Shown here: positions 2,808 through 42,754 of the stretch, one piece after another | How the letters are laid out: every line of letters begins with the position of its first letter | How positions within the stretch are numbered: the stretch's first letter is position 1 | Source: Sanguibacter antarcticus | Lineage (GTDB): Bacteria; Actinomycetota; Actinomycetes; Actinomycetales; Cellulomonadaceae | Length of the DNA: 64,000 nucleotides | Reading direction: 5' to 3' | Assembly (NCBI RefSeq): GCF_002564005.1 | Contig: NZ_PDJG01000001.1 | Location: 3,100,001-3,164,000, forward strand | The notes under the pieces: model-generated | The model's database searches: none | Told to the model about the DNA's origin: nothing | Seen by the model: only the letters and a program-made list of their open reading frames with translations | Made by a program: the position numbers and the translations under genes

Positions 2808-3371
2808 ATGAGCGTCGTCGGCCTCGTGCTCGCCGCGGGCGGCGGGCGGCGGATGGGGCGCCCGAAGGCGTTGCTCGACTCCGACGGCGAGAGCTGGCTC
2901 GGTCTCGCCGTCTCGCTGCTCGAGAGGGCCGGCTGCGGGCCGGTGCTCGTCACGCTCGGCGCCGAGGCGGACGCGGCGCGCCTGCTCGTGCCGCCTACGG
3001 CTCGCGTCGTGGAGGTGGCCGGGTGGGAGCGCGGGATGAGCGAGTCTTTGCGCCAGGGGCTCGACGCCGCAGAGCGGCTCGGCCCGGAGACCGACGCCGT
3101 GGTCATCACGCTCGTCGACCTGCCTGCGCTGCGCGACGGCGCGGTCGCGCGCGTCCTGGGCTCCGCCGAGGGCCGTCGCGATGCGCTGCGCCAGGCCTCC
3201 TACGACGGCAGGCCCGGACACCCTGTCCTCGTCGGCCGTGCGCACTGGGCGCGGCTGCGTGCCACCCTCGGCGGTGACACGGGCGCGCGCGACTACCTCC
3301 GGGCCCACGGTGCGGACGTGATCGACTGCACTGATCTCGGTGGGGGCGAAGACATCGACAGTCGTGAATAA
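2808..3371 (+). CDS. MobA/MocA-like nucleotidyltransferase
   Basis: Predicted 187-residue NTP-transferase of the MobA-like (NTP_transf_3) family. The N-terminal nucleotide-binding signature LAAGGGRRMGRPKALL is intact, and VVITLVDLPALR resembles the metal-binding D-x-P segment. Family members attach CMP or GMP to molybdopterin, or nucleotides to other small substrates. No other molybdenum-cofactor gene is adjacent, although the window carries a molybdopterin nitrate reductase at 40.3 kb, so its role in cofactor maturation is only inference. The start was placed at the ATG directly before the signature; the frame stays open upstream to 2559 but that part looks non-coding. Confidence 0.8.
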   Translation: MSVVGLVLAAGGGRRMGRPKALLDSDGESWLGLAVSLLERAGCGPVLVTLGAEADAARLLVPPTARVVEVAGWERGMSESLRQGLDAAERLGPETDAVVITLVDLPALRDGAVARVLGSAEGRRDALRQASYDGRPGHPVLVGRAHWARLRATLGGDTGARDYLRAHGADVIDCTDLGGGEDIDSRE

Positions 3372-29898: not shown

Positions 29899-31056
29899 GT
29901 GACCGATCTGATGCAGTCGACGCAGGCACCAGAGACCACCGACGACACCCCCATGCAGATCGTCGCACCAGACGGTCGTCGGGTCACGTCTGAGCGCAAC
30001 GCTCCGTACCGGGCGCGCCTCGCCGGGCTCGACGACGACGACCTGCGCGGCTTTTACCGCGACATGATGCTCGTCCGCCGCTTCGACACCGAAGCCACAG
30101 CGCTCCAGCGGCAAGGAGAGCTCGCTCTCTACGCGCCCCTCCTCGGCCAGGAGGCCGCCCAGATCGGGTCAGGCCGCGCGCTGTCACCCCAGGACATGGC
30201 GTTCCCGTCGTACCGCGAGCACGGCGTGGCGTACACGCGCGGCGTCGAGCTCCCGCACCTCCTCCAGCTCTTCCGCGGCGTCGACCACGGCGGGTGGGAC
30301 TCCGAGGCACACCGCTTCCACCTCTACACGCTCGTCATCGGCTCACACACCCTCCACGCGACCGGCTACGCCATGGGCGTGCAGCGCGACGGGCTCGTCG
30401 GCACCGGCGACACCACCCAGGACACCGCCGTCATCGCATACTTCGGCGACGGAGCCACCTCGCAGGGCGACGTGAGCGAAGCCCTCGGATTTGCCGCTGT
30501 GAACAACGCACCCGTGGTGCTGTTCTGCCAGAACAACCAGTGGGCCATCTCCGTACCGACCTCGAAGCAGTCCCGCGTCCCGCTCTACCGACGCGGCCAC
30601 GGCTTCGGCGTGCCGAGCGTCCGCGTCGACGGCAACGACGTGCTCGCCTGCTACGCCGCGACGACCGAAGCGCTCGAGCGCGCCCGCACCGGCGGCGGCC
30701 CCACCTTCATCGAGGCCGTCACCTACCGGATGGGCGCACACACCACGTCCGACGACCCCACCCGCTACCGCACCTCCGCCGAAGAGGACTACTGGCGCGA
30801 CCGCGACCCCATCGACCGCCTCCGCATCCTCCTGCGCACCGAAGGCCTCTGGGACGACGAGGCCGAAGCAGCGCTCGCCGTCGAGGCCGACGCGCTCGGC
30901 GAACGCGTCCGCACCTACGTCCGAGGCCTCGGACGCCCGGCGGCCTCGTCGATGTTCGACCACGTCTACGCGACCGAGAACTCGCTCGTCACGGAGGACC
31001 GCACCTGGTTCGCCGACTACGAGGCGTCCTTCACCGACCAGGGAGGCGCTCGATGA
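29899..31056 (+). CDS. bkdA: 2-oxoacid dehydrogenase E1 component, alpha subunit
   Basis: A 385-residue TPP-dependent E1alpha subunit of the branched-chain 2-oxoacid or pyruvate dehydrogenase complex. The TPP-binding motif begins GDGATSQGDVSEALGFAA near residue 183 and ends at CQNNQWAISVP. The phosphorylation-loop analogue YRMGAHTTSDDPTRYR is present. Branched-chain type is favoured by the separate alpha and beta chains in an E1a-E1b-E2 operon, but the substrate is not certain. The GTG start at 29899 has GGAGGAG upstream. Its stop overlaps the E1beta start. The three palindromes at 29773-29818 probably control it. Confidence 0.88.
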   Translation: MTDLMQSTQAPETTDDTPMQIVAPDGRRVTSERNAPYRARLAGLDDDDLRGFYRDMMLVRRFDTEATALQRQGELALYAPLLGQEAAQIGSGRALSPQDMAFPSYREHGVAYTRGVELPHLLQLFRGVDHGGWDSEAHRFHLYTLVIGSHTLHATGYAMGVQRDGLVGTGDTTQDTAVIAYFGDGATSQGDVSEALGFAAVNNAPVVLFCQNNQWAISVPTSKQSRVPLYRRGHGFGVPSVRVDGNDVLACYAATTEALERARTGGGPTFIEAVTYRMGAHTTSDDPTRYRTSAEEDYWRDRDPIDRLRILLRTEGLWDDEAEAALAVEADALGERVRTYVRGLGRPAASSMFDHVYATENSLVTEDRTWFADYEASFTDQGGAR

Positions 31057-32111
31057 CCGCCCAGACCACCACGCCCGCGTCGACGGCCACGCAGCTGCCG
31101 TTCGCGAAGGCCATCAACGCGGGGCTCGACGCCGCGCTCGCGGGAGACCCGAAGGTCCTCCTCATGGGCGAGGACATCGGTCCCCTCGGTGGTGTCTTCC
31201 GTGTGACGGACGGCCTGCAGGCCACGTACGGCGAGGACCGTGTCGTCGACACCCCGCTCGCGGAGTCCGGCATAATCGGCACGGCGATCGGCCTCGCGCT
31301 GCGCGGCTACCGACCGGTGTGCGAGATCCAGTTCGACGGGTTCATCTTCCCCGGCTTCGACCAGATCACCACGCAGCTCGCAAAGATGCACTACCGCTCC
31401 AGCGGCCGCCTCACGGTGCCTGTCGTCATCCGTGTCCCGTACGGCGGCGGCATCGGTGCCGTCGAGCACCACAGCGAGAGCCCCGAGGTGCTCTTCGCGC
31501 ACACACCCGGGCTCCGTGTCGTGTCTCCGGGCTCGCCCCAGGACGCGTTCGTCATGATCCAGGAGGCGATCGCCTCGCCGGACCCGGTGCTCTTCTTCGA
31601 GCCGAAGGGGCGCTACTGGGAGAAGGGCGCGGTGGACCTGTCCACCGGGCCGTACGCCTCAGGCGGGACGAGCGCGCAGGCGCCCGCGGAGGCGGACGCC
31701 TTCGACACGCTCAACAAGGCCGTCGTCGCGCGGCCGGGCACGGACCTCACCCTCGTCGCGTACGGCGCGACGGTCGCCACCGCGCTCAAGGTCGCAGCCT
31801 CTGCAGCGTCCGAGGGGACGAGCATCGAGGTCATCGACCTCCGGTCCATCTCGCCGCTGGACACCACCACCGTCGTGGAGTCCGTGCGCCGGACTCACCG
31901 CTGCGTCGTCGTCCACGAGGCCCCGACCTTTCTCGGGTCCGGCGCGGAGATCGCGGCGCGCGTCACCGAGCAGTGCTTCTACGAGCTCGAGGCGCCCGTC
32001 CTGCGCGTCGGCGGATTCCACACGCCGTACCCGGTCGCGAAGATCGAGCACGAGTACCTCCCCGGCCTGGACAGGGTGCTCGACGCCGTCGATCGAGCAC
32101 TAGCGTTCTGA
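31053..32111 (+). CDS. bkdB: 2-oxoacid dehydrogenase E1 component, beta subunit
   Basis: A 352-residue E1beta subunit that pairs with E1alpha to decarboxylate the 2-oxoacid and reductively acetylate the E2 lipoyl group. Family segments are GEDIGPLGGVFRVTDGL, DTPLAESGIIGTAIGLAL, GGGIGAVEHHSESPEVLF (the His expected at the active site) and the C-terminal VHEAPTFLGSGAEIAAR. The ATG overlaps the upstream stop by four bases. E2 follows 54 bp downstream. The E3 lipoamide dehydrogenase gene is not in the window and must be elsewhere. Confidence 0.92.
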   Translation: MTAQTTTPASTATQLPFAKAINAGLDAALAGDPKVLLMGEDIGPLGGVFRVTDGLQATYGEDRVVDTPLAESGIIGTAIGLALRGYRPVCEIQFDGFIFPGFDQITTQLAKMHYRSSGRLTVPVVIRVPYGGGIGAVEHHSESPEVLFAHTPGLRVVSPGSPQDAFVMIQEAIASPDPVLFFEPKGRYWEKGAVDLSTGPYASGGTSAQAPAEADAFDTLNKAVVARPGTDLTLVAYGATVATALKVAASAASEGTSIEVIDLRSISPLDTTTVVESVRRTHRCVVVHEAPTFLGSGAEIAARVTEQCFYELEAPVLRVGGFHTPYPVAKIEHEYLPGLDRVLDAVDRALAF

Positions 32112-33866: not shown

Positions 33867-33882
33867 CGCTCGTTTGTCCAGC

Positions 33883-33940
33883 TCGGGCGCTTGTTGCGAT
33901 CTCGGGCATTCAAAGGCCCGAGATCGCGACAAGTGCCCGA
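33883..33940. repeat. Dispersed palindromic repeat, copy 1
   Basis: A 25-bp left arm (33883-33907, starting TCGGGCGCTTGTTGCG) and right arm (33916-33940, ending GACAAGTGCCCGA) surround the loop ATTCAAAG. Only two positions differ and both would be G-U pairs in RNA. Copy 2 lies inside the nitrate reductase gene at 42062-42131 and shares the core CTCGGGC, eight bases, GCCCGAGATCG. Confidence 0.75.
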
Positions 33941-34126
33941 AGTCAGCGCTCGCGGAGCGAAAAGGTCAGTGCTCTCGGAGCCACAGACTTGAGGCTCTGT
34001 CGCCTGGAGGTCAGGGCTCTGTGCTTGGCGTGGACTCAGGGATCACGAGGCAGACAGGTGCCGAGAGGCACAGACGGTCGCGGGAGGTCGCGGACGGTCC
34101 CCGACGGTCCCCGACGGGCGCCGAGC

Positions 34127-40250: not shown

Positions 40251-40258
40251 GCGAGCCC

Positions 40259-42754
40259 GTGCCAGCCACCCCTGCCACGCCCGTCCCGGCCGTCGCGCCC
40301 GGACCGACGTCGACCCACTGCCCCTACTGCGCCCTGCAGTGCGCGATGACGCTCGAGCCCGCCGCCGTGACGGGGGCAAGGCAGGACGCGGGTGGGCAGG
40401 CAGCCGCCGGTCCGGTGGCGCTCGGACTGCCGAGCGTCGTCGTGCAGGGCCGAGAGTTCCCGACGAACCGGGGCGGGCTGTGCCAGAAAGGCTGGACCAG
40501 CGCGAGCGTCCTCACCGCGCCGGACCGCCTCACCACCCCGCTCGTGCGGGGCGCGGACGGCGAGCTGCACGCAACGACGTGGGACGACGCGCTCGACCTC
40601 GTCGCAGCCCACGCCCGGCAGACCGCCGCCGACCACGGGCCCGACGCGGTCGCCGTGTTCGGCGGCGGCGGCCTGACGAACGAGAAGGCCTACGCGCTGG
40701 GCAAGTTCGCGCGCACCGTCCTGCGGACCGCGAACATCGACTACAACGGACGCTTCTGCATGGCGAGCGCCGCCGCCGGCGCCAACCGGGCATTCGGCAT
40801 CGACCGGGGTCTGCCGTTCCCGCTCGCCGACGTCGGAGGGGCCGAGGCCGTCCTCCTGCTCGGCTCCAACCTCGCCGAGACCATGCCACCGGCCGTCCAG
40901 CACCTCGCCGGAGCACGTGACCGCGGCGGGCTCGTCGTCGTCGACCCGCGGCGCAGCGCCACCGCCACCCTCACCGAGAACGGCGCAGGTGCCCACCTCC
41001 AGGTGGTGCCCGGCACCGACCTCGTCGTGCTCCTCGCGCTCCTCCACGTCGTCTGGGCGGAAGGCCTCGCCGACAGCGCGTACCTCGCCGACCGCACGAC
41101 CGGGTCCGACGCCGTCCGCCGGTCGGTCGCCGCCTGGTGGCCCGAGCGCGCAGAGCAGGTGTGCGGCGTCGCCGCCGACGAGCTCCGTCGCGTCGCCCGG
41201 CTGCTCGCTGGCGCGAGCCCCCTCCACGGCGGTGCAGGGGCGTACGTCCTCACCGGCCGCGGCGTCGAGCAGTCCACCCAAGGGACCGCGACCGTCACCG
41301 CAGCCATCAACCTGTCGCTCGCGCTCGGCCTCCCCGGCCGACCAGGCAGCGGCTACGGCACCATCACCGGCCAGGGCAACGGGCAGGGCGGGCGCGAGCA
41401 CGGGCAGAAGGCCGACCAGCTCCCCGGCTACCGCAAGATCGACGACCCGGCCGCGCGAGCGCACGTCGCCGCCGTCTGGGGAGTCGACCCCGACTCGCTG
41501 CCCGGACCGGGCCTGCCCGCCGTCGAGCTGCTCAGGCGCCTCGGCCAGCCCGCGCAGCCTGCGTCGCCCGGCCACCCCGGCACGCCTGCCGGTCCCCGGA
41601 TGCTCATGGTCCACGGCTCGAATATCGTCGTCAGCGCACCGAACTCTCAGACCGTCACCGCCAACCTCGACGACCTCGACCTCCTCGTCGTGTGCGATGT
41701 CGTCCCGTCCGAGACCGCCCGGCTCGCCGACGTGGTCCTCCCCGTCACGCAGTGGGCCGAAGAAGAAGGGACCCTCACGTCCCTCGAAGGCAGGATCATC
41801 CGACGACGCCGCGCCGTCGCCGCTCCCGACGGTGTGCGCTCGGAGCTCGAGATCTTCGCCGCGCTCGCGGACCGCCTCGGGTCCTCGGTCCACTTCAGCA
41901 CGGACCCGGCCGAGGTGTTCGACGAGCTCGCCCGCGCCAGCGCAGGCGGGACCGCCGACTACTCGGGCCTCAGCCACGCCCGTCTCGACAAGGACCCGAA
42001 CCTCTTCTGGCCGGTCCCGGCGAGCGCCCCCACGGTGCTGGGAAGGAGCTCCGCCGTGTCCTCGAGTTCGGGCATTCGTCCCGACCTCGGGCCTACGAAC
42101 GCCCGAGATCGAGCCGAATGCCCGAGCTCGACGGGCAGCTCGAGGTCGATGCTCAGGGCGTCGGGGGGCTCGGGAGTCGGAGCTGGGCGTTCCGGAGGTG
42201 CGGCCGAGCACGGGGCGGTCGAGGCGCTGCACCCGGGGTCGCCTCGGCTCTTTCTTGACAGGTTTCCTACGCCCGACGGGCGGGCCCGGATGGTTGCCGT
42301 CGACCACGCGGGGCCGAGCGACGACGTGCGCGCCGACGCCCCGATCTACCTCGTCACGGGGCGGGTGCTCCAGCACTACCAGTCCGGGGCGCAGACCCGG
42401 CGGGTCGCAGAGCTCGTCAAGGCAGCGCCGGAGCCTTTCGTCGAGATCCATCCCGTCCTCGCACAGTGCCTCGGGATCGAGGACGGTGCGTCCGTGCGGG
42501 TCGCATCGAGCAGAGGAGCTGTCGTCGCGCCGGCGCGCCTCACGACCACGGCCCGCCTCGACACCGTCTTCATGCCGTTCCACTGGGCAGGCACCGGCAG
42601 CGTCAACCGCGTCACGACAGACGCGACAGACCCGATCTCGGGGATGCCCGAGTTCAAGGTCTGCGCGGTCGACGTCAGCCTCGCGGGCACCGTCGTCCCG
42701 CCGCCCGACAGCGTCGCGCGCGCCCCCCACCACCTCGCGGAGGTCCGCACATGA
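40259..42754 (+). CDS. nasA: Assimilatory nitrate reductase, molybdopterin subunit, with insertion
   Basis: An 831-residue molybdopterin oxidoreductase reducing nitrate to nitrite. The [4Fe-4S] ligands are in HCPYCALQCAM with the fourth Cys in NRGGLCQKGWT. Molybdopterin-domain features follow (FCMASAAAGANRAFGIDRGL, GSGYGTITGQGNGQGGREHGQKADQLPGY), and a C-terminal MopB dinucleotide domain (LVTGRVLQHYQSGAQTRRV). Between NLFWPVP and HPGSPRLFLDRF, normally near-contiguous, lie about 70 extra residues (codons near 42018-42231) rich in Ser, Gly and Arg; half are encoded by the palindromic repeat at 42062-42131. The GTG start is eight bases after narK. Confidence 0.9.
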   Translation: MPATPATPVPAVAPGPTSTHCPYCALQCAMTLEPAAVTGARQDAGGQAAAGPVALGLPSVVVQGREFPTNRGGLCQKGWTSASVLTAPDRLTTPLVRGADGELHATTWDDALDLVAAHARQTAADHGPDAVAVFGGGGLTNEKAYALGKFARTVLRTANIDYNGRFCMASAAAGANRAFGIDRGLPFPLADVGGAEAVLLLGSNLAETMPPAVQHLAGARDRGGLVVVDPRRSATATLTENGAGAHLQVVPGTDLVVLLALLHVVWAEGLADSAYLADRTTGSDAVRRSVAAWWPERAEQVCGVAADELRRVARLLAGASPLHGGAGAYVLTGRGVEQSTQGTATVTAAINLSLALGLPGRPGSGYGTITGQGNGQGGREHGQKADQLPGYRKIDDPAARAHVAAVWGVDPDSLPGPGLPAVELLRRLGQPAQPASPGHPGTPAGPRMLMVHGSNIVVSAPNSQTVTANLDDLDLLVVCDVVPSETARLADVVLPVTQWAEEEGTLTSLEGRIIRRRRAVAAPDGVRSELEIFAALADRLGSSVHFSTDPAEVFDELARASAGGTADYSGLSHARLDKDPNLFWPVPASAPTVLGRSSAVSSSSGIRPDLGPTNARDRAECPSSTGSSRSMLRASGGSGVGAGRSGGAAEHGAVEALHPGSPRLFLDRFPTPDGRARMVAVDHAGPSDDVRADAPIYLVTGRVLQHYQSGAQTRRVAELVKAAPEPFVEIHPVLAQCLGIEDGASVRVASSRGAVVAPARLTTTARLDTVFMPFHWAGTGSVNRVTTDATDPISGMPEFKVCAVDVSLAGTVVPPPDSVARAPHHLAEVRT
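42062..42131. repeat. Dispersed palindromic repeat, copy 2, inside nasA
   Basis: A 31-bp left arm (42062-42092) and right arm (42101-42131) surround CTACGAAC; 27 of 31 positions pair. The arms share TCGGGCATTC, CTCGGGC and GCCCGAGATCG with copy 1 at 33883-33940. It is read in frame within the nitrate reductase as about 23 residues (GIRPDLGPTNARDRAECPSS) and creates no stop. Confidence 0.75.

Follow-up and report, generated by a model that had tools for sequence, protein, structure and literature searches.

The stretch analysed here (the window) comprises 64,000 nucleotides of the Sanguibacter antarcticus genome (contig NZ_PDJG01000001.1, positions 3,100,001 to 3,164,000). It contains, on the plus strand, an open reading frame for the assimilatory nitrate reductase NasA (40253..42754), whose product matches the Pfam families Molybdopterin, Molydop_binding and Molybdop_Fe4S4. 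The start codon is not fixed, and 40253 is where translation was begun. The interdomain linker of this enzyme carries a palindromic repeat that is translated in frame. We describe this palindrome, the dispersed repeat family to which it belongs and a nuclease-type gene in the same genome that is bracketed by copies of the repeat. The repeat and its partner gene were sought in 39 genomes. The window's own is called G000, the comparison genomes carry other G numbers and extracted loci carry L numbers.

The palindrome in the NasA linker

The palindrome occupies 42061..42132 (G000:C1:3142061-3142132 in a search of the whole genome), where it matches a covariance model of the repeat (R1, see below) at 82 bits. 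A sequence-only reading of the window had already recognized it in frame within nasA, with borders at 42062-42131. It is 72 nt long and free of stops in the nasA frame, with 31-nt arms that are 87% complementary and an 8-nt loop. As DNA, it folds more strongly than 200 of 200 shuffles (z -4.15). The layout is M-8-M-8(loop)-M'-8-M'. Read against the alignment of own copies, the motif M occurs twice in forward orientation on the plus strand, as CGAGTTCGGGC (42063..42073) and CGACCTCGGGC (42082..42092). The loop (42093..42100), which differs among copies, is followed by two inverted copies of M on the minus strand (42101..42111 and 42120..42130), which read GCCCGAGATCG and GCCCGAGCTCG on the plus strand. 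The match to an intergenic palindrome of the window, also proposed earlier, was upheld by R1, which finds this second copy at 33876..33947 (78 bits; z of DNA folding -8.42). The window contains two occurrences of the core CTCGGGC-N{4,14}-GCCCGAG, where 0.05 would be expected, and it has no gathering-level match in Rfam.

Alignment with nine relatives defines an extended linker at 42005..42229 (plus strand), with about 72 residues from FWP to HPG. The relatives have 5, 6, 11, 13, 21, 22, 26, 31 and 38 residues between these blocks or their equivalent: 5-13 in three relatives of other families and 11-38 in six of the same family. The sequence-only reading held that the two blocks are normally nearly contiguous and that about 70 residues were extra. 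The order of the blocks was right and the linker is longer than in any of the nine relatives, but its length is variable within the family. Moreover, the palindrome accounts for only about 24 of the roughly 70 residues, and the remainder (more than half of the extra length) is low-complexity linker. The insert does lie clear of the conserved parts, as had been expected, since it falls between the Molybdopterin (residues 92-541) and Molydop_binding (698-805) domains. Nor is it shared by close relatives: the three congeners with nasA (G002, G003 and G005) have no palindrome in the linker at a score of at least 12. This score is specific to our analysis. In 24 kb of shuffled DNA no palindrome exceeded 12, and thresholds of 15 and 17 were used for other comparisons.

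Two further candidates were dropped. A decayed second copy within the linker had only weak R1 matches (12.5 bits, 42203-42243) and is not claimed. The idea that the palindrome is built for translation found no footing either, as own copies have on average 4.8 of six frames open, compared to 4.6 in flanking 72-nt windows.

The dispersed family and its partner gene

An exact search of the whole genome with the core hit 13 places; in 11 the loop measures 8 nt. Nine own copies align without gaps, with 30-bp arms and a variable 8-nt loop, and M (11 nt) is close to CGAGnTCGnnn in the family. Changes in one arm are mirrored in the opposite arm (six pairs, 14 cells), and the covariation score of these nine copies was reached in 0 of 500 shuffles. 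R1 was built on them and has 16 matches in the whole of G000, of which 14 are distinct; two duplicate others because the contig ends overlap. G000 is a single contig whose first ~32 kb (the length is an estimate) recurs at its end, an unresolved circular overlap with 99.8% identity over the 2.2 kb compared, and in the end copy small differences break the frame of the nuclease gene described below. The proposal of a mobile element had been made to hinge on the core recurring elsewhere in the genome, and it does so, the repeat having 14 distinct copies in all. As for the accompanying question, whether copies interrupt other genes in frame, a rough test of GC content by reading frame places none of the other 13 copies in a predicted gene, so nasA is an exception.

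Among the matches listed for the 39 genomes, R1 has copies in 11, counting the own genome; these 11 belong to one family, and the 14 genomes from other families have no copy there. Examples from related genera share the layout but have their own ending of M. One weak match, L049 (G010:C81), consists of tandem CGACGTCGAGC-type units that are coding by the rough test and is probably not a member. As for position, none of the 14 own copies is more than 0.64 Mb away from dnaA (2885543) in a genome of about 3.49 Mb (Kolmogorov-Smirnov p 5e-6, or 3e-5 with the 12 collapsed own sites). Elsewhere the same test gave p 0.43 for G014 alone and p 0.037 for three other genomes pooled (17 sites among the matches listed).

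Two own copies, at 30080-30151 and 31575-31646 (positions from the whole-genome search), bracket a gene for a 340-aa protein. Pfam gives this protein a weak AbiEi match, PADLOC matches it with several AbiEi profiles (best E 1.7e-12) and NCBIfam has no match for it. The fold model of a homologue suggests an AbiEi-like module fused to a domain resembling Vsr/EDxHD homing endonucleases. Over 74 members, the only frequent Pfam hits are to AbiEi and REase families, and PD-(D/E)XK-type residues are invariant among homologues. Homologues occur in 32 of the 39 genomes, sometimes several per genome. Between the flanking palindromes the nuclease-type gene stands alone, and one neighbour gene encodes a cold-shock protein. 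Many of these loci share one chromosomal site across species and genera: by their flanks, the 140 loci (counted with duplicates) fall into 65 clusters.

How often are such genes accompanied by palindromes? We took 40 of the closest and 20 weaker homologues with their flanks, out of a longer homologue list, and sought palindromes de novo. With 700 bp before the gene and 400 bp after it considered, 27 of the 40 and 9 of the 20 have a palindrome scoring at least 17, compared to 12 such palindromes in 389,888 bases of control DNA (20 random stretches, mostly from the same genomes). Pairs on both sides of the gene also occur outside the family (L111, L148 and L155). From a scan of named genomes, 80 loci of 406 relatives were used, from Sanguibacter, Cellulomonas, Cellulosimicrobium, Actinotalea, Flavimobilis, Promicromonospora, Isoptericola, Oerskovia and other genera. 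In this sample, 45 of 80 loci have a palindrome of at least 17 beside the gene and 26 have palindromes of at least 15 on both sides. Of all 34 upstream palindromes that reach the higher threshold, 31 are no more than 400 bp away from the start; of the 40 downstream ones, 32 are no more than 200 bp away from the stop. We then considered 132 loci, that is, 140 minus eight taken as duplicates (among which L227 was wrongly dropped, as it shares a frameshift tag with L226). At a score of at least 15, 44 are two-sided, 46 one-sided and 42 without, so that 90 of 132 have a palindrome. At most about 12 of the 132 would be expected by chance, from the control density at 14 or above (30 in 389,888), about 1.2 kb per locus and 132 loci. 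At one conserved nuclease site in Isoptericola (L215, L216, L228 and L232), the downstream hairpins are short, near-perfect and unlike the M layout, and are perhaps ordinary terminators.

The palindromes match each other and follow the nuclease. In 43 of the 44 two-sided loci, the upstream palindrome is best or equal-best matched by its own downstream partner, and in 38 of 44 the pair agrees at 18 or more of 20 positions, a likeness seen in 0.6% of pairs from different loci. Comparing palindromes with proteins across 83 loci (five with unlike palindromes, judged by eye, and proteins with stops, frameshifts or more than 400 aa were left out), palindromes were alike at 18 or more of 20 positions in 11 of 12 pairs with at least 70% nuclease identity, 2 of 12 at 60-70%, 3 of 116 at 50-60% and 0 of 3263 below 50%. 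At the largest shared site (23 loci, duplicates included), palindromes differ among species, yet left still resembles right in the two-sided loci; protein and palindromes therefore turn over together in place.

Solo copies follow the same pattern in several genomes. In G000, G004, G011 and G024, one nuclease flank palindrome agrees with the genome's own solos at 22-24 of 24 positions, and with foreign solos at no more than 21 (one or two example solos per relative were used, and a position filter lost the palindrome of L090). The core GTCGTCTAT-N{2,8}-ATAGACGAC has seven exact matches in G005 (two beside a nuclease gene), two in G003 (one beside a nuclease gene) and none in the 37 other genomes. 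The own core has 11 matches (9 distinct) in G000 and 16 in the 38 other genomes together, compared to 15 for a reversed control. That is, in the 39 genomes, these two core types rise above background only where the cognate nuclease is present. On this evidence, there is good support for a coupling between the nuclease-type gene and the palindrome. Another repeat family (GTTGAGTGCATGAAG...; L251:1001-1140 in G005) has more than 12 matches in G005 and G003 among those listed, and resembles the flanks of another nuclease group (L146, L153 and L154).

Sites can also hold different palindromes in different genomes. The NasA linker of G007 contains, in frame, another palindrome (GAGAACAACACTG type / CGAGAACAACACTG type; L062:3164) with a second copy elsewhere in the genome (L242), and no matching nuclease flank was found among the G007 flanks looked at. 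In G012, the linker has a third type, TGTCAGC...GCTGACA, in frame and below the scoring threshold, with a second copy about 0.5 kb away (L063:929 and 1448). Three of the 10 NasA linkers compared thus carry three unlike repeated palindromes in frame. Intergenic sites behave similarly: the place that holds the palindrome of G005 has another type in Sanguibacter suarezii, like the flank of the S. suarezii nuclease locus L102. In particular, the S. suarezii spacers that correspond to the solo pair L251 contain palindromes of another type (986-1044 and 2969-3027 on the reverse strand of L265). In S. suaedae the counterpart has a palindrome (L268, 2832-2887) that is perhaps an ordinary terminator, and the G000 counterpart has one short hairpin on one side only. 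Moreover, the own solo L037 and the Flavimobilis nuclease locus L202 have the right-hand gene in common; L213 and L230 have the same left-hand gene as the G004 solo L046. Because only one flank aligns per case, this sharing of sites is only suggestive.

Interpretation and rival explanations

We lean towards the view that the nuclease-type protein spreads or rewrites its palindrome, and that one copy landed in the tolerant linker of NasA. The insert would then contain a solo copy of a dispersed palindromic repeat partnered with an AbiEi-Vsr-like single-gene protein. The N-terminal AbiEi-like module would bind M, and the protein would cut DNA, an activity that might copy or re-seed the palindrome at new, mostly intergenic places, as RAYT does for REPs. 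Perfect arms could be kept through selection on the hairpin or through arm-to-arm copying, and the copy that entered the linker would have persisted because the frame was kept. Spreading or rewriting is the simplest account of the left/right likeness, the private families and the turnover in place.

Several points weigh against this account. The earlier idea of a small mobile palindromic element fits the repetition and the absence from the linkers of three congeners; its mobility is something we infer, as are DNA binding and cutting, with no movement observed. The nuclease gene itself is not freely mobile, because it often keeps its place in the chromosome, and at 42 of the 132 homologous loci no palindrome scoring at least 15 lies nearby. 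In G007, G008, G014 and G018, the tested flanks are not the best match for the example solos, or are tied only. In G001 (a draft of 110 contigs), copies resembling those of G004 are present, but a search at E <= 1e-3 gave no homologue of the nuclease. Neither a border nor a target duplication was readable for the S. gelidistatuariae solo pair (L251) against its congeners, where the outer genes align, and for the solo L249 the alignment stops at the relative's contig end, leaving no clean empty site.

The strongest rival, which we nevertheless consider unlikely, is that the protein is an AbiEi-like DNA-binding regulator and that the palindromes are immobile operator sites, at its own and other genes, with which it co-evolves. 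According to the available part of PMC7319586, AbiEi antitoxins control their own promoter by way of inverted repeats in it; one palindrome is usually found 50-400 bp ahead of the nuclease gene, and M is present as spaced direct and inverted copies. A regulator would, however, need neither a second, matching palindrome at the 3' end of its gene nor invariant PD-(D/E)XK-type residues. It also sits badly with the solo inside nasA and with solos found between convergent genes by the rough test (own L032, L033, L037 and L039; also L043, L044, L046 and L055).

A guard or addiction system appears less probable again. The nuclease would attack DNA unless palindromes titrate or mark it, and palindromes would be kept for protection rather than copied. 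The Vsr/REase-like domain, the tight pairing and the rapid turnover of nuclease and palindrome would suit such a system. On the other hand, no methylase or partner gene turned up between the palindromes (no search was aimed at one), and the 42 palindrome-free loci, counted beside the gene and not genome-wide, argue against it.

More doubtful still are terminator-like hairpins or recombination hot spots that need no dedicated enzyme, with gene conversion making copies alike within a genome. Most own copies are intergenic, with strong, GC-rich stems, and the plain short downstream hairpins of the four Isoptericola loci are of the kind expected. Yet this explanation predicts neither the exclusive matching of upstream and downstream hairpins at one gene, nor their tracking of the nuclease sequence, nor a copy inside nasA, and is already strained. 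Finally, a chance palindrome in a linker that is variable and low in complexity can be discarded with near certainty, refuted as it is by 13 further distinct copies in the genome and the 82-bit model match.

Our broadest reading is one to which we give even chances. This actinobacterial order would harbour a class of repeat system, unpublished so far as found, in which AbiEi-Vsr fusions spread and rewrite long palindromes. Each nuclease lineage would have a private palindrome, present on either side of its own gene as well as scattered elsewhere, same-site palindromes would be rewritten upon divergence or exchange of the nuclease, and copies would ride in frame in enzymes such as NasA, whose linker would have been reached by unrelated families in three genera. 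Searches of an open-access library, which lacks most subscription papers and preprints, gave no description of an AbiEi-Vsr nuclease/palindrome pairing.

Comparison with known systems

Among resident bacterial enzymes that are coupled to dispersed palindromes, REP-RAYT is in our judgement the best-known example. Like the REP/REPIN-RAYT systems (REPtrons), ours combines dispersed palindromic repeats with a resident gene flanked by the same repeats (as far as the available part of PMC3733652 describes them), and the gene may mostly be inherited in place. Here, the gene is flanked by palindromes dispersed in the same genome, on both sides in 44 of 132 loci. The enzymes differ: RAYT is an HUH/Y1 tyrosine transposase, whereas the modelled protein has AbiEi-like and Vsr-like domains. 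The repeats differ as well, REPs being 20-40 bp and GTAG-tagged and ours being 56-86-nt palindromes of the layout M-8-M-loop-M'-8-M', and the nine own copies in the alignment have no terminal GTAG. RAYTs are described as single-copy and vertically inherited (PMC8049555, in the part available); here several paralogues per genome occur, and many loci are at the same site across species. Since the enzyme is not a RAYT, we do not file the system under REP-RAYT, though it apparently works alike. If our reading is true, a second, unrelated enzyme class would show that a REP-RAYT-like way of life has more than one origin. Dozens of natural nuclease-palindrome pairs would then be available from which to read the protein's DNA recognition, the private hairpin families of actinobacterial genomes would be explained, and it could be tested how an enzyme takes a repeat into its own chain.

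The Rickettsia palindromic elements (RPE) and the Wolbachia WPE resemble our case in that a palindromic repeat is translated in frame (one own case). The sequence-only reading drew this comparison, which is fair for a palindrome tolerated in a protein; it did not foresee a nuclease-type gene flanked by the same palindrome. CGTC repeats, which include RPE-4 and RPE-6, have no dedicated transposase, and the phyla listed for them do not include actinobacteria (both from the available part of PMC3733652). Unlike RPE, the present family has a cognate nuclease-type gene and rarely resides in genes, and the CGTC end is absent from the nine aligned own copies.

Other likenesses concern the protein. 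In REase_MTES_1575, the MTES_1575 protein is a large HEPN fusion, and the available part of its description does not mention palindromes. The predicted catalytic fold is Vsr-like, as in EDxHD homing endonucleases (I-Bth0305I), although no intron or intein was seen here. With AbiE type IV toxin-antitoxin systems, in which an AbiEii (DUF1814) toxin gene adjoins that of the antitoxin, the modelled protein appears to share the antitoxin fold and its DNA-binding N-terminus. It differs from AbiEi antitoxins in that a C-terminal nuclease-like domain is fused to this module and the gene stands alone between two palindromes.
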